Shown in pieces: positions 13,567-31,469 of a stretch of 34,609 bases of DNA. The translations under genes were made by a program, and so were the position numbers. Source of the DNA: Candidatus Cloacimonadota bacterium (GTDB lineage: Bacteria > Cloacimonadota > Cloacimonadia > Cloacimonadales > TCS61); NCBI GenBank assembly GCA_030600585.1, contig JAUVLU010000028.1, positions 1-34,609 on the forward strand, written 5' to 3'. Within the stretch, counting starts at the first letter, position 1. Each line of letters begins with the position of its first letter. The notes under the pieces are model-generated. The model searched no databases, had not been told where the DNA came from, and worked only from the letters and a program-made list of their open reading frames with translations.

Positions 13567-13639
13567 TTTTTTAAAATAAAACTTGCGTTATGCACATATG
13601 TTCATTATGTTGTCTTGTGTGTTTGGGAAAGGAGAATAT

Positions 13640-14092
13640 ATGCCAAGAAGAAAAATGCAGAGAATGGTTCACCGACCGCCGCTTTACACAGAATTTAAAC
13701 CTGTGGGAGTACGAAGGTTATCTTTGGATTCAATTGAACTCTCGATCGATGAATATGAAGCTATTCGGCTTGCAGACAATGTCGGCATGAATCATAATGA
13801 TGCTGCTGAGGAGATGGAAATATCCCGTTCCACTTTTTCACGACTGATTGAAAATGCCCGTAAAAAAATTTCTGATTTCATTATTGAAGGCAAACATCTT
13901 CAAATAAATGGTGGAAATATTCATTTTCGCGGGAATATTATAAAATGCAATTCTTGTGGTCATATGTTCAATACAAATTTTGAAAACGATATTTTAATAT
14001 GTCCGTCCTGCGGTTCAGATAATTTAATAGATCTTGCCGGAGGATTCGGGCATGGAAGATGTTGTAGAAATAGAAATAATAGAAGGAGGTAA
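13640..14092 (+). CDS. DUF134 family DNA-binding protein with C-terminal zinc ribbon
   Basis: I chose the ATG at 13640, just after GGGAAAGGAGAATAT; an ATG-less extension upstream lacks a ribosome site. The 150-residue protein starts MPRRKMQRMVHRPP and has the DUF134 features TEFKPVGV..LSLDSIELSIDEYEAIRLAD followed by a helix-turn-helix (about 48-76, DAAEEMEISRSTFSRLI) like that of sigma region 4. After it, a zinc ribbon is formed by Cys103, Cys106, Cys121 and Cys124, and a basic RCCRNRNNRRR tail. DUF134 genes often sit beside NifX-like and MinD-type ATPase genes in anaerobes, as here, so it is the likely regulator of this cluster. The metal site could sense redox or metal state (inference). 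Confidence 0.88.
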   Translation: MPRRKMQRMVHRPPLYTEFKPVGVRRLSLDSIELSIDEYEAIRLADNVGMNHNDAAEEMEISRSTFSRLIENARKKISDFIIEGKHLQINGGNIHFRGNIIKCNSCGHMFNTNFENDILICPSCGSDNLIDLAGGFGHGRCCRNRNNRRR

Positions 14093-14094
14093 TT

Positions 14095-14274
14095 ATGCCA
14101 GGTGGAGATAGAACAGGTCCGGACGGAAAAGGACCAAGAACAGGACGCGGATTAGGAAAATCTGCAAGAAACAACACGGAACGTGGTAGAAGTCAAGGTA
14201 AGGGTCAAGGACGTAATACTGGAAATTCACGCAACCAGGGAACTGGTCGTGGAATAAACAGAAGAAGTAATTAA
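14095..14274 (+). CDS. Small glycine/arginine-rich protein, DUF5320-like
   Basis: A 59-residue frame starts MPGGDRTGPDGKGPRTGRGLG right after an AGGAGG that overlaps the stop of the DUF134 gene; spacing to the stop is 2 bases. The opening matches the MP(G/R)GDR.GP.G.GP.TGRGLG pattern of DUF5320 proteins, and the rest is low-complexity Gly, Arg, Asn and Gln. No cysteine is present. Its partner is the next gene, which has the same opening. Function of the family is unknown; a role as a small chaperone or cluster-protein companion is only a guess. Confidence 0.7.
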   Translation: MPGGDRTGPDGKGPRTGRGLGKSARNNTERGRSQGKGQGRNTGNSRNQGTGRGINRRSN

Positions 14275-14303
14275 TTTGGTTTAACCAAAATAAGGAGGTT
14301 ATT

Positions 14304-14624
14304 ATGCCAAGAGGTGATAGAATGGGTCCTAACGGGATGGGGCCAATAACAGGTAGGGGTTTAGGATATTGCAACGGCTATGAAAGTCCGGGATTTACCA
14401 GAGGTGCACCACGAGGTGGAGCAGGTTTTGGAAGAGGTTATGGACAAGGATTCGGTTACGGACGCGGATATGGAAATCAGGGATTTTCTAACTATCCGAA
14501 TTATCCAGTTCCAGAGTATTCAGCAAAAGATGAAGAAAAATATCTTGCATCAGAAATGGAAGCACTGAAAAATGAACTCAAAGCAATGGAAGAACGTCTT
14601 TCCGAATTGAAAAAGGACAAATAA
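14304..14624 (+). CDS. DUF5320 family glycine-rich protein with C-terminal coiled coil
   Basis: The 106-residue protein begins MPRGDRMGPNGMGPITGRGLG, the DUF5320 signature. Residues 30-60 repeat G(F/Y)G(R/Q)GYG units, and residues 75-106 form a charged helix (ALKNELKAMEERLSELKKDK) that should make a coiled coil. AAGGAGG stands 6 bases before the ATG. The family is typically found next to NifX-like proteins and MinD-type ATPases in anaerobes. It probably belongs to the same complex; no activity is known. Confidence 0.85.
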   Translation: MPRGDRMGPNGMGPITGRGLGYCNGYESPGFTRGAPRGGAGFGRGYGQGFGYGRGYGNQGFSNYPNYPVPEYSAKDEEKYLASEMEALKNELKAMEERLSELKKDK

Positions 14625-14689
14625 TGTGGAATGCGGCAGGGGTTGTATCTTTCTTCTTCTGTCGCTATTTTTTTATGAGGTGAATGAAT

Positions 14690-14974
14690 ATGGCAGATGG
14701 AAAACATTACGGTGGATATAAATACAGGAATAAACGAAATAAAAGTCATCTCGGAAGAAATTCTTTTTGGGGAACTGTAATTACTGCCGTTGCAGGAACA
14801 GTGGTAAAAGACCTAACCAACGAAAACAGTAAAATTAAAAAACTGTTCAATAAGGTAGTTCATCCCAAACAAATTGAAGATAAACAGAGTGAAAAAAAAG
14901 TTATCGATGCTGAATATTCGGTTGTAGATAATGAAAAAAATAGCTCGCAGATAAACACAGATAAACACGGATAA
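14690..14974 (+). CDS. Small basic protein of unknown function
   Basis: The 94-residue product starts MADGKHYGGYKYRN; ATG 14690 is better spaced from GAGG (14677-14680) than the ATG at 14684. It is basic at the N-terminus, has one mildly hydrophobic stretch (FWGTVITAVAGTVV) that might be a membrane or amphipathic helix, and ends in charged residues. The last residues (QINTDKHG) and the stop are encoded by the left arm of a dispersed repeat, so the C-terminus may be an acquired tail. I do not recognise the family. It lies inside the NifX/MinD cluster on the same strand. Confidence 0.6.
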   Translation: MADGKHYGGYKYRNKRNKSHLGRNSFWGTVITAVAGTVVKDLTNENSKIKKLFNKVVHPKQIEDKQSEKKVIDAEYSVVDNEKNSSQINTDKHG

Positions 14975-15168
14975 AGGAATGTTAAAAAGGAACTTGTCTC
15001 CTGTTCGGACACATTAAAATGAATTTCTTGTATCCAAGCCCCAGCTTGGATACAAGAAATAATTATATGTTAAGGTTACTAAGCCAGTCTCCGTAAACTA
15101 CGCCCCGACAGGCTGGGGCTTAGTAACCAGAAAATATAAATCCGTTGAATCTGTGAAGATCCGTGAGC
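14943..15168 (+). repeat. Composite palindrome enclosing two CCCCAGC hairpins
   Basis: The outer arms at 14943-14972 and 15140-15168 are imperfect inverted copies (GCTC.C.GAT...CGGAT against ATCCG...GTGAGC). Between them are a near-perfect hairpin with 17-bp arms (15023-15039 and 15044-15060, loop CCCA) and a second with 12-bp arms (15074-15085 and 15117-15128). Both inner hairpins share the CCCCAGC / GGCTGGGG core but have different stems. The 259-base gap thus holds nested repeats only. A CGATAAATCGGAG hairpin-like motif (15191-15203) follows before the next gene. Confidence 0.75.
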
Positions 15169-15233
15169 AAAAAAAAATTGGGCTTCGTCCCGATAAATCG
15201 GAGCTTCGCCCGAACAAGAGGGAGAAAAAAAAT

Positions 15234-15572
15234 ATGAACAAAAAAATTGCGATACCAACAACAAATGGAACTTTAAGCGCACATTTTGGACATTGCGAAA
15301 AATTTGCAATTTATGAAGTTGCAAACGACAAGGTCATTAAGGAAGAATTTGTATCACCACCACCACACGAACCTGGTTCATTTCCGGCTTTCCTCAGAAA
15401 TCTGGGTTGTGATTCTATCATAGCAGGCGGAATGGGAAGCAGGGCACAAAATTTATTTGCACAAAACAATATCAAAGTGATCATCGGATTGCGTTCCGAT
15501 AACCTCAAAGAACTCGTGGAAACATATATTTCGGAAGGATTAGCTTCCGGAGACAATCTCTGCGATCACTAA
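15234..15572 (+). CDS. NifX/NifB-like metal-cluster protein (dinitrogenase FeMo-cofactor family)
   Basis: The 112-residue protein belongs to the family represented by NifX, NifY, the C-terminus of NifB and MTH1175. It shows KIAIPTTNGTLSAHFGHCEKFAIYEV, where the HFGHC motif is a likely cluster-binding site, then PPPHEPGSFPAFLRNLGCD and the GGMGSRAQNLF loop. The ATG at 15234 was chosen because GAGGGAG precedes it and the family starts there; the open frame extends further upstream into repeat DNA. No nitrogenase gene is nearby, so a role with another metal-sulfur cluster is likely. The partners are the two MinD-type ATPases downstream. Confidence 0.88.
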   Translation: MNKKIAIPTTNGTLSAHFGHCEKFAIYEVANDKVIKEEFVSPPPHEPGSFPAFLRNLGCDSIIAGGMGSRAQNLFAQNNIKVIIGLRSDNLKELVETYISEGLASGDNLCDH

Positions 15573-15580
15573 TTAAAACA

Positions 15581-15816
15581 GCTCACTGATGAACACGGAA
15601 AAACACGGATAGAACAAAAATCATCAGCCACGAAGTTCACTAAAGAGCAAGAAGAAAAAATACTTAGTGTAACTTAGCGTTCTTAGTGGCTAAAAAGCAA
15701 GTTGCAGGTTCTCCGATTTATCGGAGTAGATTGAATCGTAACGTTTCAAAGGCATCAAAATGATATGTCTTGAAATTGGCTTTTTAAATCCGTTGAATCC
15801 GTGAATATCCGTGAGC
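15581..15816 (+). repeat. Nested palindromic repeat in the NifX-ATPase gap
   Basis: The gap of 288 bases carries outer arms 15581-15610 and 15788-15816, of the same type as those around 14943-15168. Inside are an inner palindrome at 15626-15691 (AGCCACGAAGTTCACTAA against TTAGCGTTCTTAGTGGCT, 14 of 18 paired) and a CTCCGAT-TT-ATCGGAG hairpin at 15711-15726. No frame in it is convincing. Confidence 0.75.
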
Positions 15817-15860
15817 AAAATCCGGCTTCGATAGACTATGCCGGGATAATAAAGGAAAAT

Positions 15861-16727
15861 ATGAAAATAGCAATTGCCAGTGGAAAAGGTGGAACCGGTA
15901 AAACTACTGTTTCCACAAATTTGACTTCTCTGTTATCAGAGAAAAGTGCTGTCGTTCTTACAGATCTCGATGTGGAAGAACCAAATTCAGGTTTATTCAT
16001 TTCCGGTGAAAAAATCTGCGAAGTAGATAAATATAAGATGATCCCTGAGTGGGAAAAAGACGAATGCATTCTTTGCGGAAATTGTCAAAAAGTATGTAAT
16101 TTCAATGCCGTGATGAAACTAAGTAAAATAATAATGGTTTTCCCTGAATTGTGCCACGGTTGTTATGCTTGCAGCGAATTGTGTCCGACAAATTCACTTC
16201 CTATGAAACCCAAAAAGATGGGAGAATTGAAACATTTCAAATCGGGAAATCTGGATTTTATCGAGAGTAAACTTATCATCGGCGAAGAACAGGCAGTTCC
16301 GCTTATCAAACAAACCCTGGATTATGTAGATGAAAATTTTCCTGATAAAACAATTAAAATTTTCGATGCACCTCCCGGAACTTCCTGTCCGGTTATCGAA
16401 GCTACCAAAGATGCAGATTTGATCTTGCTTGTAACCGAACCGACACCCTTCGGATTACACGATTTAAAACTCGCTGTGGAAACAATGAAAGCATTGAAAA
16501 AGGATATCGGGGTGATCATCAACAGATTCGGGATCGGTGATGCAAATGTGGAAGAATACTGTGAAGAAAATAATATTCCAATAATAGCCAAAATTCCCAA
16601 TATGAGAAAGATAGCAGAAATATATTCTAACGGAGAGCTTCTATATCACAAAATTCCGGAAGTAAAAGCACAACTTGAAAACATAATTACATTCATTTCC
16701 GAATATCAGCAGGAGAATACATTATGA
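15861..16727 (+). CDS. MinD-type P-loop ATPase with two 4Fe-4S ferredoxin motifs (first)
   Basis: The 288-residue protein has a deviant Walker A (SGKGGTGKTT, residues 7-16), DLDVEEPN as switch region and DAPPGTSCPV as a later switch, all typical of the Mrp/MinD/ParA group. A ferredoxin insert at about 62-110 has two CxxCxxCxxxC sets: Cys69, 72, 75, 79 and Cys98, 101, 104, 108. This is the COG1149 class, which includes the ATPases of the Desulfovibrio orange protein (ORP) complex. ATP-driven delivery or assembly of metal clusters is the probable role. I chose ATG 15861, after AAAGGA. Its stop overlaps an ATG at 16724 that no longer leads into the second ATPase. Confidence 0.92.
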   Translation: MKIAIASGKGGTGKTTVSTNLTSLLSEKSAVVLTDLDVEEPNSGLFISGEKICEVDKYKMIPEWEKDECILCGNCQKVCNFNAVMKLSKIIMVFPELCHGCYACSELCPTNSLPMKPKKMGELKHFKSGNLDFIESKLIIGEEQAVPLIKQTLDYVDENFPDKTIKIFDAPPGTSCPVIEATKDADLILLVTEPTPFGLHDLKLAVETMKALKKDIGVIINRFGIGDANVEEYCEENNIPIIAKIPNMRKIAEIYSNGELLYHKIPEVKAQLENIITFISEYQQENTL

Positions 16728-16827
16728 AAGAAATAATACTTCAACACAGTGGCACAGAGAACACAGGAAAAACGGAACTCTTATTCTTAGTGTTTTCGTG
16801 TTTTTGTGGTAAATAGAAGATTAAAAA
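16724..16827 (+). repeat. 104-bp palindromic insertion that splits ATPase 2 from its original start
   Basis: The ATG at 16724 overlaps the stop of ATPase 1 as ATGA, follows AGGAG (16711-16715), and reads ATGAAAGAAAT. The same 11 bases begin the real ATPase 2 at 16828. Between them lies a palindromic repeat of the CACGAA / TTCGTG type (about 16742-16811). The old start now gives only a 30-residue frame ending TAG at 16814-16816. The new start has no clear Shine-Dalgarno sequence. The 11-bp direct repeat looks like a target-site duplication. Confidence 0.75.
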
Positions 16828-17697
16828 ATGAAAGAAATCGTAATAATTTCAGGAAAAGGCGGAACCGGTAAAACATCGATCACAGCTTCTTTTGCCTGTC
16901 TTGGCGGAAAAGATGTAATCGTAGCGGATTGTGATGTAGATGCAGCAGATATGCATCTTTTGATGCAACCGGATTGGAAAAAATCAGAAGATTTTTACAG
17001 TGGAGTACTCGCAGAAATCGATCAGGAAAAATGTATAAAATGTGGAAAATGTGCAGATGTTTGTCGTTGGGATGCAATTCCTGTTATTGATAACGAATAT
17101 ATCGTTCAACCTCTTGATTGTGAAGGTTGCGGATATTGTGCGCTTGTTTGTCCTGCCGATGCGATAAGTATGGATGAGCAGAATGTGGGAAAATGGTTTT
17201 TATCTAACGTTAAGACCGGAACAAAAATGGTGCACGCAAAATTGGGGATCGGTGCCGAGAATTCCGGCAAACTGGTAGCTAAAGTAAAAAGCGAAGCAAA
17301 AGCACTGGCAGAAAAAAATAATAAGCAGATCATTCTGGTGGACGGTTCCCCCGGAATCGGATGTCCGGTAGTATCTTCACTTTCCGGTGCAAGTTATGTT
17401 GTGCTGGTTACGGAACCTTCTGTCGCCGGTATTCACGATCTGAAACGAGTTTACGAGCTTGTGAAGAAATTTGGTATCAAAGCAGGATGCATCATTAATA
17501 AAGCTGATATTAACCTGGAAAAAACCAAAGATATCCACGCATTTCTGAAAACAGAAAATATCGATCTGATCAGTGAAATTCCCTATGATGAGAATTTTAC
17601 AAAAGCTATGACTCAAGGTAAGACGATCGTAGAATTTGATAATGGAAAGATTAAACAGATTTTAGAAGATAGTTGGAAAAAAATAAAATATCTATAG
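16828..17697 (+). CDS. MinD-type P-loop ATPase with two 4Fe-4S ferredoxin motifs (second)
   Basis: The 289-residue paralogue of the preceding ATPase has SGKGGTGKTS (8-17) as Walker A, DCDVDAADMH as switch and DGSPGIGCPVV later. Its ferredoxin insert has the same spacing: Cys69, 72, 75, 79 and Cys98, 101, 104, 108. The two proteins are similar in length and layout but clearly diverged, so a heterodimer is likely, as proposed for ORP-complex ATPases. The start at 16828 is supported by family alignment, not by its ribosome site. The stop TAG abuts a dispersed repeat. Confidence 0.92.
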   Translation: MKEIVIISGKGGTGKTSITASFACLGGKDVIVADCDVDAADMHLLMQPDWKKSEDFYSGVLAEIDQEKCIKCGKCADVCRWDAIPVIDNEYIVQPLDCEGCGYCALVCPADAISMDEQNVGKWFLSNVKTGTKMVHAKLGIGAENSGKLVAKVKSEAKALAEKNNKQIILVDGSPGIGCPVVSSLSGASYVVLVTEPSVAGIHDLKRVYELVKKFGIKAGCIINKADINLEKTKDIHAFLKTENIDLISEIPYDENFTKAMTQGKTIVEFDNGKIKQILEDSWKKIKYL

Positions 17698-17807
17698 CTC
17701 ACGGATGAACACGGAAAAACACGGATGAAACAAAAAATAAACAGCCGCGAAGTTCACTAAGATGCACGAAGAAAAAAACTTAGTGTTACTTAGCGTTCTT
17801 AGTGGCT
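17697..17807 (+). repeat. Dispersed palindromic repeat after ATPase 2
   Basis: Starts GCTCACGGATGAACACGG directly at the stop codon and includes the inner palindrome 17743-17807 (AGCCGCGAAGTTCACTAA against TTAGCGTTCTTAGTGGCT). It is a second copy of the unit at 15581-15691, but the right outer arm is missing. AAAGGAG for the next gene follows immediately. Confidence 0.75.
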
Positions 17808-17823
17808 AAAAAAGGAGTATTTA

Positions 17824-18156
17824 ATGAAAATCTTACTAACAGCAAAAGGAACAGAATGGGATTCTAAGATGGATCCGAGATTCGGCAGAACTGAGTTTTT
17901 CTTTATCTATGATGAAGAAACCAAAAAAGTAGATACTTATGATAACCGTGCAATTGCAAATGAAGCACACGGCGCCGGACCGAAGACAGCTCAAAAAATG
18001 TCTGAATATAATGTTGATATTCTCATCACAGGAAACGGACCCGGTGGAAATGCAGCTTCCGTTGTGAAACAAACAGGTATAAAAGTATTTGTCGGTGCAG
18101 GTGAAATGACTGTGAAAGAAGCTTATGAAGCTTACAAATCAGGAGAATTGAAGTAA
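17824..18156 (+). CDS. NifX/NifB-like metal-cluster protein (second)
   Basis: The 110-residue protein has the same family fold as the product at 15234: KILLTAKGTEWDSKMDPRFGRTEFFFIYD, then a GNGPGG loop and VFVGAGEMTVKEAYEAY near the end. The metal-binding His and Cys of HFGHC are replaced by RFGRT, so any cluster would be bound differently. This form matches the small orange-protein-like members that accompany MinD-type ATPases in anaerobes. AAAGGAG stands 8 bases upstream. A strong terminator follows, ending the transcript. Confidence 0.88.
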   Translation: MKILLTAKGTEWDSKMDPRFGRTEFFFIYDEETKKVDTYDNRAIANEAHGAGPKTAQKMSEYNVDILITGNGPGGNAASVVKQTGIKVFVGAGEMTVKEAYEAYKSGELK

Positions 18157-18170
18157 CATCAAAATACTGT

Positions 18171-18208
18171 AAACTTCAGAAGTTTCCAAAAACTTCGGAA
18201 GTTTTTTT
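18171..18208 (+). terminator. Rho-independent terminator
   Basis: Arms AAACTTCAGAAGTTT (18171-18185) and AAACTTCGGAAGTTT (18190-18204) pair at 14 of 15 positions around a 4-base loop and run into seven T. It separates the second NifX-like gene from the third. A further hairpin-like repeat (AAGATTAGACTT...AAGTCCGGTCTT, about 18209-18244) follows it. Confidence 0.9.
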
Positions 18209-18260
18209 TAAGATTAGACTTGCTCCGCAACGAAGTCCGGTCTTAGGTTAGGAAGAAAAG

Positions 18261-18653
18261 ATGGAAAAACTAAAAGTAGCTTTTGCCACAGATGATGGCA
18301 AAACATTTATGAGTCGTCATTTTGGTGATGCAGAATATTATTATATTTATGAAATTGATAATGAAAATACTGAATTCATAAAAAAGATTAGCAATACTAC
18401 AGAAGAAGAGGAAGATGTTCACGCTGACCCCAAAAAAGCTAAAAGTATAGCTAAATTATTGAGACAAGAACAAGTACAAACATTAGTTTCCAAAATATTC
18501 GGACCTAATATTGTTCGGATAAAGAAGAAATTTGTTTGTATTTTAATAAAAGAAAATTCGATAGAAAATAGTATTGAAATTATTAAAAATAATCTTCCGA
18601 TAATTGCCAAAGAATGGGAAATGGGTGAAGAAAGAAATTTCCTTAGATTGTAG
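18261..18653 (+). CDS. NifX/NifB-like protein (third, divergent)
   Basis: The 130-residue protein opens MEKLKVAFATDDGKTFMSRHFGDAEYYYIYEI, the NifX-like start with an HFGDA motif, and continues through VQTLVSKIFGPNIVRIKKKF, which matches the middle loop of the family. Compared with the other two it has a longer acidic segment (TTEEEEDVHADPKKAKS) and an extra C-terminal tail (EWEMGEERNFLRL). It lies 6 bases before the MBL gene, so the two are co-transcribed, after a terminator that sets them apart from the first part of the cluster. Confidence 0.82.
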   Translation: MEKLKVAFATDDGKTFMSRHFGDAEYYYIYEIDNENTEFIKKISNTTEEEEDVHADPKKAKSIAKLLRQEQVQTLVSKIFGPNIVRIKKKFVCILIKENSIENSIEIIKNNLPIIAKEWEMGEERNFLRL

Positions 18654-18659
18654 GTTAAT

Positions 18660-19298
18660 ATGAAAATAACAATAGTTTACGATAATACAACAAACAAACC
18701 CGGTTTGATCGCAGATTGGGGCTGGTCTTGCTTAATTGAAACAAAAGAAAAAAATATTCTATTTGATACCGGTGGAAACGGAAAGATATTGTTGGAAAAT
18801 CTGATAAATTTGAATATCGATCCTAAGTCAATTGACGATGTTGTGATCTCTCATCCTGATTTCGATCATATCGGAGGACTTTCGACGTTTTTTAATCTGA
18901 ACCAAAATGCAATTATTCATATTCCTATTTCTTTTCGCGGAATTCGATATTCAAACAAAGTGAAATACTATGACAAACCTGTTGAAATTTATGAGAATAT
19001 TTTCCTTACAGGTGAACTTGATAAAAGAGAACAATCTTTAGCAATCAAGACAGAGAAAGGTCTTGTCCTGATTATCGGCTGCGGACATCCGGGAGTGAGC
19101 AACATTATGGATTCGGTCTCACAATTCGGAAATATTTATGCGATTATCGGAGGCTTACACGGATTTAAGGAATTTGAAGTTCTTGGAAACATTGATAAAA
19201 TATGTCCTGCACATTGCACGAAACACAAAGAGAAAATCAAGATGTTATACCCTGAAAAATACATTGAAGGTGGAGTTGGAGAGATATTTGAATTTTAA
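18660..19298 (+). CDS. Metallo-beta-lactamase-fold hydrolase, COG1237-like
   Basis: The 212-residue protein has an MBL fold with LFDTGGNG, SHPDFDHIGGL, GCGHPGVSN, IGGLHGF and PAHCTKHK blocks in the order of COG1237. Some COG1237 members are annotated as dihydropterin-related enzymes; no specific reaction can be inferred. The first metal motif is HPDFDH (His65-Asp69-His70), with Asp67 where HxHxDH has its second His. Other metal ligands seem present. It is 6 bases after the third NifX-like gene and 1 base before the glycosylase gene. Confidence 0.82.
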   Translation: MKITIVYDNTTNKPGLIADWGWSCLIETKEKNILFDTGGNGKILLENLINLNIDPKSIDDVVISHPDFDHIGGLSTFFNLNQNAIIHIPISFRGIRYSNKVKYYDKPVEIYENIFLTGELDKREQSLAIKTEKGLVLIIGCGHPGVSNIMDSVSQFGNIYAIIGGLHGFKEFEVLGNIDKICPAHCTKHKEKIKMLYPEKYIEGGVGEIFEF

Positions 19299-27390: not shown

Positions 27391-28077
27391 ATGAAAATCA
27401 TTGCAATAATCACCGCCGGTGGTAGCGGGGAAAGAATAAAGAGTGAAAAGAAGAAGCAGTTCATTGAAATAATGAACCGTCCTCTTCTATTCTGGACTAT
27501 AGATAAATTTGCTGATCATCCTGATATTAACCGAATCATTATCACTTTACCTCAAGATGAAATTGAAATTTATAAAACTATTATTGAGAGAGAATACAAT
27601 GGATTTCCCATCTCTATTATTGCCGGCGGGAAGATGCGTCAAGACTCAGTTTATAATGCACTTGCCCTCTGCCCTGAAGATACTGACCTCGTTCTAATTC
27701 ATGACGGTGTACGACCCTTTATTTCGCAAAACAGTATTTCCGGATTGATAAAAAAAGCACAGCAGAAAAAAGCTGTAATCCCTGTAAGCAAAGTAAAAAA
27801 TACAATAAAAAAAATCGAACAAGATAAAGTAATAACAACCGTAACGAGAGAAGATATAATCAATGCATTTACTCCACAGGTTTTTCAATATAAATTAATA
27901 AAACAGTGTCATGACGAAGCAAAAAAAATAGATTTATATTGCACTGATGATGCAGCTTTACTTGAACATTTTGGACACACAGTTTATACTTTGGAATGTT
28001 CTTCACATAATATCAAGATCACAGATCAATTCGATCTGGAAATTGCTAAATTTATAATAAAGAATAACCTTTTATGA
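27391..28077 (+). CDS. ispD: 2-C-methyl-D-erythritol 4-phosphate cytidylyltransferase
   Basis: This enzyme makes CDP-methylerythritol in the MEP route to isoprenoids. The 228-residue protein has the nucleotide-binding start AGGSGERIKSEKKKQFIEI, then LIHDGVRPF, VSKVKNTIKKIE, and TPQVFQYKLI, all in IspD order. The length is normal. GGAG lies 9 bases before the ATG. A candidate TTGCTT...CATATT promoter (27332-27360) is weak. ispF, its usual neighbour, is 2.9 kb downstream with glmS between. Confidence 0.95.
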   Translation: MKIIAIITAGGSGERIKSEKKKQFIEIMNRPLLFWTIDKFADHPDINRIIITLPQDEIEIYKTIIEREYNGFPISIIAGGKMRQDSVYNALALCPEDTDLVLIHDGVRPFISQNSISGLIKKAQQKKAVIPVSKVKNTIKKIEQDKVITTVTREDIINAFTPQVFQYKLIKQCHDEAKKIDLYCTDDAALLEHFGHTVYTLECSSHNIKITDQFDLEIAKFIIKNNLL

Positions 28078-28093
28078 AAAGGTAAATAAAATT

Positions 28094-28234
28094 GGACAGG
28101 ATGAAAATTGAAAAAATAGAGTGAGAGAAAAAAATATGATCTTGTTTATCATGTTGATCCCGTCAGAAAAAATTTAGACAGGATTTACCGGATGGACAGG
28201 ATAAAAAACTGAAAAATAGAGTGAGAGAAAAAAT
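28094..28234 (+). repeat. Direct 40-bp repeat flanking a 26-bp-arm palindrome
   Basis: GGACAGGAT(n7)TGAAAAA...TAGAGTGAGAGAAAAAA occurs at 28094-28134 and again at 28194-28234, exactly 100 bases apart. Between and overlapping the second copy is an imperfect palindrome with arms 28139-28164 and 28177-28202 (ATCTTG.TTATC.... against ...GGATGGACAGGAT). The unit sits 13 bases before the glmS start and precedes its AGGAG site. Confidence 0.65.
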
Positions 28235-28247
28235 TAGGAGAAAATAA

Positions 28248-30965
28248 ATGAGAATGAACAGATTGAAAAATCTGAAAATAACAATATCAATTCCTTTATT
28301 TGGAATTGGTTGTGGAGTACTGGGGTTGAGTATGTTCAAAACAACATTGAAGCTTGGTGAATATGCATCAACTCTATTGAAAGCACTTGAATATCGTGGT
28401 TATGATTCAACCGGAGCAGTGTTCCAAAAAGATAAAATGGAAGTAACCCTGCTCAAAGATGTAGGTGCACCAAGCACTTTGGTAAAAACTTTGGGGATCG
28501 AAAAGGAAGCCGGAAAAATATTTTGCGGACAGGTACGTTGGGCAACTTTTGGAAGTGTAACCAAAAAAAATGCTCAACCACACATTGTTAAATGTAAAAA
28601 TTTTATTTACGGAGCTCATAATGGAAATATCACAAATACCCGCGAACTCAAAAATTTCCTGCTTTCGGAAGGACATAATGTTATTTCTGACAATGATGGA
28701 GAAATGCTTGTTCATATTATTGAGCATTATTTTGAAAATGAACTTAGCAAAATAGAAAGTTCGGAACGTACAAATGAGAAGATCAGAAAGCAATGTATGA
28801 GAAAGGCAATAATCCGCGGAGCCAAAAAAATAGTAGGTTCTTATGCAGCAGTTATTGTAGATCCGGTTACCAAAACAAGTTATGCAATAAAAGCAGGGAG
28901 TAGTTTATATTTTGGCATTGGTTCAATTGATGGGAATCGCTTCGGTCTTGCTTCCTCCGATCTTACTGCAGTCCTCAAATTCACAAAAAAACTTATCAAC
29001 CTTCATGAAGGAGAATGTGTTGAATTCCAAAATGATAATTTCAATGTTTTTGCATTCAGGCACCTTAAAATCAAACGAGCCGGACAAGATGATCTCAATT
29101 ATAAACCGGGAGATACGATCTCAAAAATAGCTGTCCGTTCCAAATTAAGAGCAGAAGACACAGAGCTTTTACCACCTTTTGAGTATTTCATGGAACAGGA
29201 AATCTACGCAGAAACCGAGTCTTCGGGTAAACTTATCAAGCTCTTTAAAGGTGGTTCCAATACCGGTAGAAGAATGCTTGAACTTCTTAAGAAAGAAAAA
29301 ATTCTAATTGTGAAAGAAAAACTGCATAAAGAGATTACAGAAATCGATGATTTCAAAAAACAGCAGAAAATATTCTCAGATTTTGCAAAATCTAAAATTG
29401 CTGAAGAATTTTATGAAAAAGTTAAACAAAATTATACAGCAATTTATAATGAACTTGTAAAAGAAAATTTTAAAAAGAAATACTTTTTCTCCAGTAATAT
29501 GAATTTATTTTTAGAATTAATGAATTCTGAATTTAATAAAAAGCGTCTTCTTCTTGCAAAAGCACTGGATTCAATTTCTGAAATGATAGATGTGAAAGAA
29601 TTTGATGAAAGCGTCATGCATTTTCTATCCATTGCTGAAAACACATTTAAAAAAAATCGTAATATTTATACAATTGCCTGTGGAACTTCTTACCATGCTA
29701 CATTGGTTGCAGCACTATTCTTTAATGAGATAGCCAACATCGAAGTTATTCCCATTTTACCTGGGAATTTCAGAGGTCAATATTCTAAAAGTTTACAAAA
29801 TGATGATGTGATAATTGGTGTTTCACAAAGTGGCGAAACTAAAGATCTTATTGATATCTTTAACGATATCGAGCGTTCTGATCTGGATATTAAGAAAGTT
29901 GTATTAGTGAATAACATGAATTCAACTCTGGGTCAGGAGAAAAGTGATGTTTCTATTCCTATTTCATGTGGTCCCGAAATTGCAGTTCCGGCAACAAAAA
30001 GCTTCATTAATCAAATTACCCTGTTCTATTATTTAGCGGTTAAAATAGCTGAAATGAAGTTAAATAATATCGAGGATAAGAATTCTCCTGAATATTTGAA
30101 ATTGAAGAAAAAAGTTGATTTCCGCCGAAATTCAATAGTGAAGATACCACAATTAATTCAGGAAACTATCCAAACAACAAAAGAGCAGATTGAATTTGTA
30201 GCCGGAAAAATATATATGGAACCTTCAATGCACATTTTGGCAACCAAGATAACCGGAGTAGCCAAAGAAGGCGCACTTAAAATTCGTGAAACTGTATTGA
30301 ATCACACAGAAGGCGGAGAAGCTTCCGAGTTTAAACACGGTCCCAATACTATTTTAGGAAAGAATACCGTTTTTGGAATAAAAAATATCAAAACAATAAT
30401 AAAACATTATAACAAGATCATAGAAGAAATGGAGGCACACTCTGAAGAAAAAAATATCTCCTATAATGAACGAAGAAAGATCACTCTTGCGATAAGTAAT
30501 TATGTTTTTTCAAGATCTTATCCTTTCAATCTTTCACAAAAAGCATTAACACTTTTTAAGGAGATCATTGAAGATTATGACTTCTTTGAAAATGCTTACA
30601 GAAACTATCCGCTTATTTATGTTACGGGACCTGATGAAAGAGATATTAATTTAACAATTTCCCAGATCAATACACATAAGATCCGTGGCGGTGACACATT
30701 CATTATTGCGGAAGAAAATGATAAATTATTAGAAAATGCTCATCTGAATCCGCATGATAAAGGATATTACGGGTGGGGATATATCACCTTGCCCCGAACT
30801 GGTGATTCATTAATGACAACTTTTTCTTCTACTATTGTTCTTCAGTTGTTAGCACTTAAAATGAGTATAAAAAAAATGGAATATCTGGATAGATTAAGCA
30901 TCAAAGACCATGGTGTTCATCCCGATGTGCCGAAAAATGTTTCAAAATCAATTACGGTAGATTAA
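28248..30965 (+). CDS. glmS: Glutamine-fructose-6-phosphate aminotransferase, oversized
   Basis: GlmS makes glucosamine-6-phosphate from fructose-6-phosphate and glutamine, the entry to peptidoglycan and LPS sugars. The 905-residue protein is about 300 longer than usual (about 610). The glutaminase domain has Cys22 in GIGCGVLG (candidate nucleophile), RWATFG, HNGNITN and DNDGEML. The SIS domains show ACGTSYHATL, SQSGETKDL, SFINQ and EFKHGPN, with KSITVD at the end. Insertions of about 120 residues (between EIYAETE and ACGTSY) and about 90 (after EFKHGPNT) explain the length. The start is supported by AGGAGA 6 bases upstream, so the 21 residues before Cys22 are real and must be removed for a normal N-terminal nucleophile. 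Confidence 0.9.
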   Translation: MRMNRLKNLKITISIPLFGIGCGVLGLSMFKTTLKLGEYASTLLKALEYRGYDSTGAVFQKDKMEVTLLKDVGAPSTLVKTLGIEKEAGKIFCGQVRWATFGSVTKKNAQPHIVKCKNFIYGAHNGNITNTRELKNFLLSEGHNVISDNDGEMLVHIIEHYFENELSKIESSERTNEKIRKQCMRKAIIRGAKKIVGSYAAVIVDPVTKTSYAIKAGSSLYFGIGSIDGNRFGLASSDLTAVLKFTKKLINLHEGECVEFQNDNFNVFAFRHLKIKRAGQDDLNYKPGDTISKIAVRSKLRAEDTELLPPFEYFMEQEIYAETESSGKLIKLFKGGSNTGRRMLELLKKEKILIVKEKLHKEITEIDDFKKQQKIFSDFAKSKIAEEFYEKVKQNYTAIYNELVKENFKKKYFFSSNMNLFLELMNSEFNKKRLLLAKALDSISEMIDVKEFDESVMHFLSIAENTFKKNRNIYTIACGTSYHATLVAALFFNEIANIEVIPILPGNFRGQYSKSLQNDDVIIGVSQSGETKDLIDIFNDIERSDLDIKKVVLVNNMNSTLGQEKSDVSIPISCGPEIAVPATKSFINQITLFYYLAVKIAEMKLNNIEDKNSPEYLKLKKKVDFRRNSIVKIPQLIQETIQTTKEQIEFVAGKIYMEPSMHILATKITGVAKEGALKIRETVLNHTEGGEASEFKHGPNTILGKNTVFGIKNIKTIIKHYNKIIEEMEAHSEEKNISYNERRKITLAISNYVFSRSYPFNLSQKALTLFKEIIEDYDFFENAYRNYPLIYVTGPDERDINLTISQINTHKIRGGDTFIIAEENDKLLENAHLNPHDKGYYGWGYITLPRTGDSLMTTFSSTIVLQLLALKMSIKKMEYLDRLSIKDHGVHPDVPKNVSKSITVD

Positions 30966-30995
30966 ACTAATTAATTAAATATGGAGTGTTATAAA

Positions 30996-31469
30996 ATGCG
31001 AATTGGATATGGATATGACGTTCATAAATTAGTAGAAAATCGGAAGCTTATATTGGGTGGAATAGATATCCCTTTTGAAAAAGGATTGCTTGGACATTCC
31101 GATGCAGATGTTCTTGTTCATGCTGTTATTGATGCCACCTTAGGCGCAGTTGCAAAAGGTGATATCGGGCTGCTGTTCCCGGATGCAGATAACAATTACA
31201 AAGATATCGATAGTAGAATATTACTTAGAAAAACTTATGAGATAATGCAAGATTCAGGCTATAAAATTGGAAATATAGATGCAACGATTTGTGCTCAACA
31301 ACCAAAACTGCAAAGCTATATTCCGCAGATGCTTGAGAATCTGGCTTCCGATCTGCAAACCGATATTTACAATATTTCCATTAAAGCAACAACCGAAGAA
31401 GGAATGGGTTTCACCGGCGAAGGGAAAGGTATATCTGCAACTGTTGTTATTCTTTTAGAATCATTATGA
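30996..31469 (+). CDS. ispF: 2-C-methyl-D-erythritol 2,4-cyclodiphosphate synthase
   Basis: This MEP-pathway enzyme cyclises CDP-ME-2-phosphate with loss of CMP. The 157-residue protein has the metal-binding DVH (Asp8, His10 in GYGYDVHKL), [18 protein letters not shown] with the third ligand His, and a late [16 protein letters not shown], normal for IspF. I chose ATG 30996, 9 bases after GGAG, over the ATG at 30981 that carries the ribosome site itself. It follows glmS by 30 bases, so it is likely co-transcribed with it. Confidence 0.95.

Follow-up and report, generated by a model that had tools for sequence, protein, structure and literature searches.

A 34,609-nucleotide stretch of Cloacimonadota DNA (the window) encodes a 905-residue homologue of GlmS, hereafter the giant. 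We consider it likely to be an active, glutamine-dependent GlmS that belongs to a divergent clade of enlarged enzymes and is synthesised as a precursor, its leader being cut off at a Gly/Cys junction, probably by the enzyme itself. The route of amino sugars into the cell wall starts with GlmS, which makes glucosamine-6-phosphate (GlcN6P); class II amidotransferases require a free α-amine on their catalytic Cys. To our knowledge, described GlmS enzymes start with Met-Cys, so that their nucleophile is freed by removal of the Met. In the giant, the corresponding Cys is residue 22. The features of the locus are as follows:

27391 to 28077, forward strand: ispD, conserved upstream neighbour (named from sequence).
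28236 to 28241, forward strand: Shine-Dalgarno-like AGGAGA, ending 6 bases 5' of the ATG.
28248 to 28310, forward strand: leader, or predicted propeptide, residues 1-21 (MRMNRLKNLKITISIPLFGIG), whose last residue is the invariant Gly(-1).
28311 to 28313, forward strand: codon of Cys22, the class II amidotransferase nucleophile and predicted mature N-terminus.
28311 to 29147, forward strand: class II glutamine amidotransferase (Ntn) domain, residues 22-300 (Pfam, match to 1xff).
29253 to 29624, forward strand: insertion 1, residues 336-459, helical, between the glutaminase and the first SIS domain (alignment, AlphaFold).
29649 to 30041, forward strand: first SIS (sugar isomerase) domain, with the sugar-phosphate motifs CGTS and SQSGET.
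30369 to 30608, forward strand: insertion 2, residues 708-787, helical, in the second SIS domain after EFKHGP.
30930 to 30962, forward strand: C-terminal tail PKNVSKSITVD with catalytic Lys900 (E. coli GlmS Lys603).
30981 to 31469, forward strand: ispF, conserved downstream neighbour (named from sequence).

A sequence-only reading of this DNA had proposed a giant GlmS translated from the ATG at 28248, preceded by AGGAGA, with its nucleophile within a CGVLG motif. All three points were borne out: the open reading frame runs from that ATG to a stop at 30965, the AGGAGA lies where listed, and Cys22 aligns with Cys1 of both PurF and canonical GlmS. Pfam matches comprise SIS and class II amidotransferase domains, and the domain order, a class II glutaminase followed by tandem SIS domains, is that of GlmS. 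Searches of the PDB by sequence and by fold alike lead to E. coli GlmS and human GFAT, and the glutaminase domain (mean AlphaFold pLDDT 83) matches that of E. coli GlmS (1xff) with a target-normalised TM score of 0.91. The nearest NCBIfam model is the GlmS model TIGR01135, matched at 287 bits, below its equivalog cut-off of 418 bits; the giant is a divergent subfamily and not the TIGR01135 equivalog itself. Since giants score under the cut-off of the standard GlmS model, genomes that encode only a giant may be called GlmS-less. Of note, the intergenic region between ispD and the giant holds a 47-base element twice (28093-28139 and 28193-28239, copies 85% identical), just 5' of the giant's Shine-Dalgarno; the 19-base core of this element has no other copy in the genome with at most one mismatch allowed.

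We read the N-termini of 95 giants, 89 with the leader and 6 without it (Met-Cys). In the translated giant the leader stands ahead of the catalytic Cys, a trait of the self-processing precursors of MEROPS C44, and the canonical GlmS trait, a nucleophile Cys right after the initiator Met, is absent in all 89 extended giants. The residue preceding the Cys is Gly in every one of the 89 (codons GGT, GGC and GGA), so no start codon can place the Cys at position 2; none occurs directly before it in any of them, and a wrong start codon was rejected on these grounds. Both observations that had been expected to count against an internal Cys, a start shift yielding Cys2 and relatives devoid of the Cys, thus failed to appear, the former in all 89 extended giants and the latter among the relatives. 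Translation from an internal start, with the Cys at position 2 and the leader untranslated, is accordingly very improbable: some relatives do carry a TTG or ATG at -2, yet GGN occupies -1 throughout and the upstream frame is under protein-level selection. Moreover, an ATG located 10 or more codons 5' of the Cys is accompanied by a Shine-Dalgarno-like motif in 74 of the 89, compared with 4 of the 89 for a start at -9 to -1.

The leader itself is conserved. Gly(-3) is found in 82 and Pro(-6) in 80 of the 89 extended giants, and a hydrophobic residue occupies -5, -7 and -9 in 100% and -11 in 97% of them, while -6, -8, -10 and -12 are mostly not hydrophobic; judged from these sequences, the alternation is a β-strand pattern. 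Nonsynonymous change is least beside the Cys and increases with distance upstream, with a pN/pS of 0.23 at -1 to -5, 0.36 at -6 to -11 and 0.49 at -12 to -16, values in which only the trend counts, as synonymous sites are near saturation. Residues 1-21 remained unplaced in AlphaFold models of both the whole protein and the glutaminase domain (block pLDDT 29-49). Hydrophobic residues before a Cys, with Lys or Arg further upstream, might also call to mind a lipoprotein or targeting signal, with Cys22 lipidated. We give this reading a negligible chance, as the lipobox [LVI][ASTVIG][GAS]C is found in 0 of the 89 extended giants (on which count a bacterial lipoprotein was rejected), -3 is Gly in 82, the hydrophobic residues alternate with polar residues or Pro, and the fold in which Cys22 is the catalytic residue is that of a cytosolic enzyme.

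We examined the active sites by alignment with the canonical GlmS of the same phylum, using the residue numbers and roles of E. coli GlmS. The glutaminase residues C22, D53, R97, W98, T100, N125, G126 and D150, equivalent to GlmS Cys1, Asp29, Arg73, Trp74, Thr76, Asn98, Gly99 and Asp123, are invariant in the aligned giants. On the isomerase side nine of ten residues are kept, the equivalents of Ser303, Ser347, Gln348, Ser349, Thr352, Lys485, Glu488, His504 and Lys603 being invariant and Ser401 (Ala582) the exception. Two differences from canonical GlmS are common to the giants, His77 to Phe101 and Ser401 to Ala582, and these make the assignment of its exact substrate tentative.

This invariance of both sets of residues makes decay of the glutaminase unlikely, and it was rejected as an explanation. 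The sequence-only reading had offered, as one of two options, an enzyme that had lost its glutaminase and uses ammonia, the leader being kept and the α-amine of the Cys blocked. In favour of this option, Cys22 is internal in the translated reading frame and its release is predicted from sequence; however, glutaminase residues invariant across the clade are unexpected after such a loss, and so is selection on the leader itself, strongest at the Gly-Cys junction. Together with the genomes in which the giant is the only GlmS (below), these observations leave ammonia dependence improbable.

The other option, a 21-residue propeptide that is cut off, has fared well: it draws support from the invariant Gly(-1), the strand-like conserved leader, the leaderless Met-Cys relatives, the invariant glutaminase residues and the giant-only genomes. 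Precedents exist for either way of exposing the Cys. In GFAT and E. coli GlmS its α-amine is freed by Met removal (PMC7948480), whereas autocatalytic cleavage of PurF propeptides leaves an N-terminal Cys (PMC7056826); MEROPS C44 includes self-processing precursors of both PurF and glutamate synthase (PMC5753285). In the proteasome, self-cleavage hits the bond after Gly(-1), with the prosegment in antiparallel β-structure (PMC4792962). The giant's leader bears both of these proteasome marks, Gly(-1) and a strand-like prosegment, and by analogy we infer self-cleavage between Gly21 and Cys22. The leader would dock as a β-strand close to the glutaminase active site, and the invariant Gly(-1) would let the Gly21-Cys22 peptide bond take the turn required for attack by the Cys22 thiol. 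An N-to-S acyl shift and hydrolysis would follow, releasing the α-amine of Cys22. The mature enzyme would then begin at Cys22 and hydrolyse glutamine, with the ammonia channelled to the SIS half and fructose-6-phosphate aminated.

A separate protease or peptidase could instead remove the leader, and conservation of the leader fits a recognition site equally well. We nevertheless regard this as unlikely, given that in both its invariant Gly(-1) and its Ntn fold, whose catalytic residues are all present, the giant resembles the self-processing relatives. Conservation of the leader extends further upstream than would be required of a peptide that is simply discarded; the leader may therefore help folding, or could stay bound or even attached. 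It is conceivable, although the chance is small, that the giant is a zymogen under control of its leader: cleavage of the leader, or release of a cleaved but strand-bound leader, would depend on assembly or on a metabolite that is sensed through the extra helical regions. If so, maturation would act as a switch for a GlmS that shares its operon with isoprenoid (lipid-carrier) genes.

The extra length of the giant resides largely in two insertions, which had been put at about 120 and 90 residues, both in the SIS half. These sizes were roughly right. Compared with the canonical GlmS of the same phylum, insertion 1 comprises 111 extra residues (336-373 and 387-459) and insertion 2 comprises 80 (708-787), besides smaller insertions of 21, 16, 12, 12 and 10 residues. 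The second does lie within the second SIS domain; the first belongs to the SIS half only loosely, as it falls outside the SIS fold, in the linker that connects the glutaminase to the first SIS domain. AlphaFold predicts residues 336-459 and 708-787 to be all-helical, which is compatible with the suggestion that they are domains, but attempts to name them by Pfam and by PDB profile (sequence) search returned nothing significant. The Met-Cys relatives resemble the giant in length and have at least part of these insertions, which therefore look to have arisen before the leader and independently of it.

The giant is a conserved second GlmS paralogue in Cloacimonadota, present in 95 of 125 genomes of the phylum, and among relatives from named genomes all but one of 23 are Cloacimonadota. 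No relatives were found in viral contigs, and none of 369 plasmid records reached 80% coverage of the query. The gene order is ispD-giant-ispF: of the 21 Cloacimonadota loci inspected, all 21 have ispD upstream, and all have ispF downstream except L006 and L020, the latter of which is cut by the contig end. In Cloacimonadota L018 the giant's reading frame is split, a pseudogene or an assembly error. Elsewhere in the window, 13583-19298 holds a cluster of a DUF134-like regulator, NifX-like proteins, two MinD-type ferredoxin ATPases and a metallo-beta-lactamase-fold protein, names that were mostly judged from the open reading frame list.

The host genome (2.58 Mb) also encodes an ordinary 612-residue GlmS starting MCGIVGYIG. 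Among 75 genomes at least 90% complete, 45 hold both enzymes, 14 only the giant, 16 only the canonical enzyme and none neither, such that the canonical GlmS is absent from 14 of 59 giant-bearing genomes. The complementarity is modest (Fisher p 0.03, calculated on metagenome-assembled genomes with kinship ignored). With 14 giant-only genomes and none devoid of both, the giant seems able to serve as a cell's only GlmS, which points, indirectly, to synthesis of GlcN6P from fructose-6-phosphate and glutamine.

Our survey of giants spans two phyla, Cloacimonadota and a second one. The six giants that begin Met-Cys come from the second phylum, to which the genome of L019 (filed by NCBI under Pseudomonadota) also belongs, and Met-Cys is likewise the start of those canonical GlmS and PurF sequences that were checked in Cloacimonadota. 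Given these Met-Cys relatives, the leader was probably gained rather than ancestral, most simply once. It also occurs in two members of the second phylum. In a tree of the mature parts one change suffices for the leader trait, and the leader-bearing L074 (G183, second phylum) is nested inside Cloacimonadota, which together suggest a single gain followed by transfer or mis-binning; L075 sits on a long branch and its placement is unsure. Two further observations concern the second phylum. L073 (G189) has a giant gene with one in-frame TAG, a pseudogene or an assembly error, and G125 and G187, genomes whose completeness is not established, encode a giant Met-Cys GlmS with no canonical GlmS above the cut-off.

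Leader processing is known in related enzyme families. A search limited to open-access literature found no relevant paper on a GlmS propeptide, and within that literature the giant's leader is the first probable propeptide found for a GlmS. Most of one phylum seems to have acquired a cleavable leader while relatives still begin Met-Cys, and the two kinds of giant form a natural before-and-after pair for the evolution of Ntn hydrolase self-processing, one that also bears on whether an invariant Gly(-1) suffices for it.

Of the known systems, canonical GlmS and GFAT (TIGR01135, PRK00331; E. coli GlmS 4amv and 2j6h; human GFAT-1) are the best matches of the giant by sequence and fold, sharing its domain order, catalytic residues and C-terminal KS[IV]TV tail; the giant differs in being ~300 residues longer, in its internal Cys22 in place of Met-Cys, and in having Phe for His77 and Ala for Ser401. 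PurF leaders are ~11 residues long and end in Glu, whereas the giant's has an invariant Gly as its last residue and follows a conserved strand pattern. B. subtilis-type PurF is, like the giant, a class II Ntn amidotransferase with a leader before its Cys, but its synthase half differs, and its leader is cleaved autocatalytically (PMC7056826) where cleavage in the giant is predicted. The β subunits of the 20S proteasome, also Ntn hydrolases, share Gly(-1) before the nucleophile, and their prosegment forms antiparallel β-structure (PMC4792962), as the predicted strand of the giant's leader may; these subunits are proteases with a Thr nucleophile, and the parallel is one of mechanism only.
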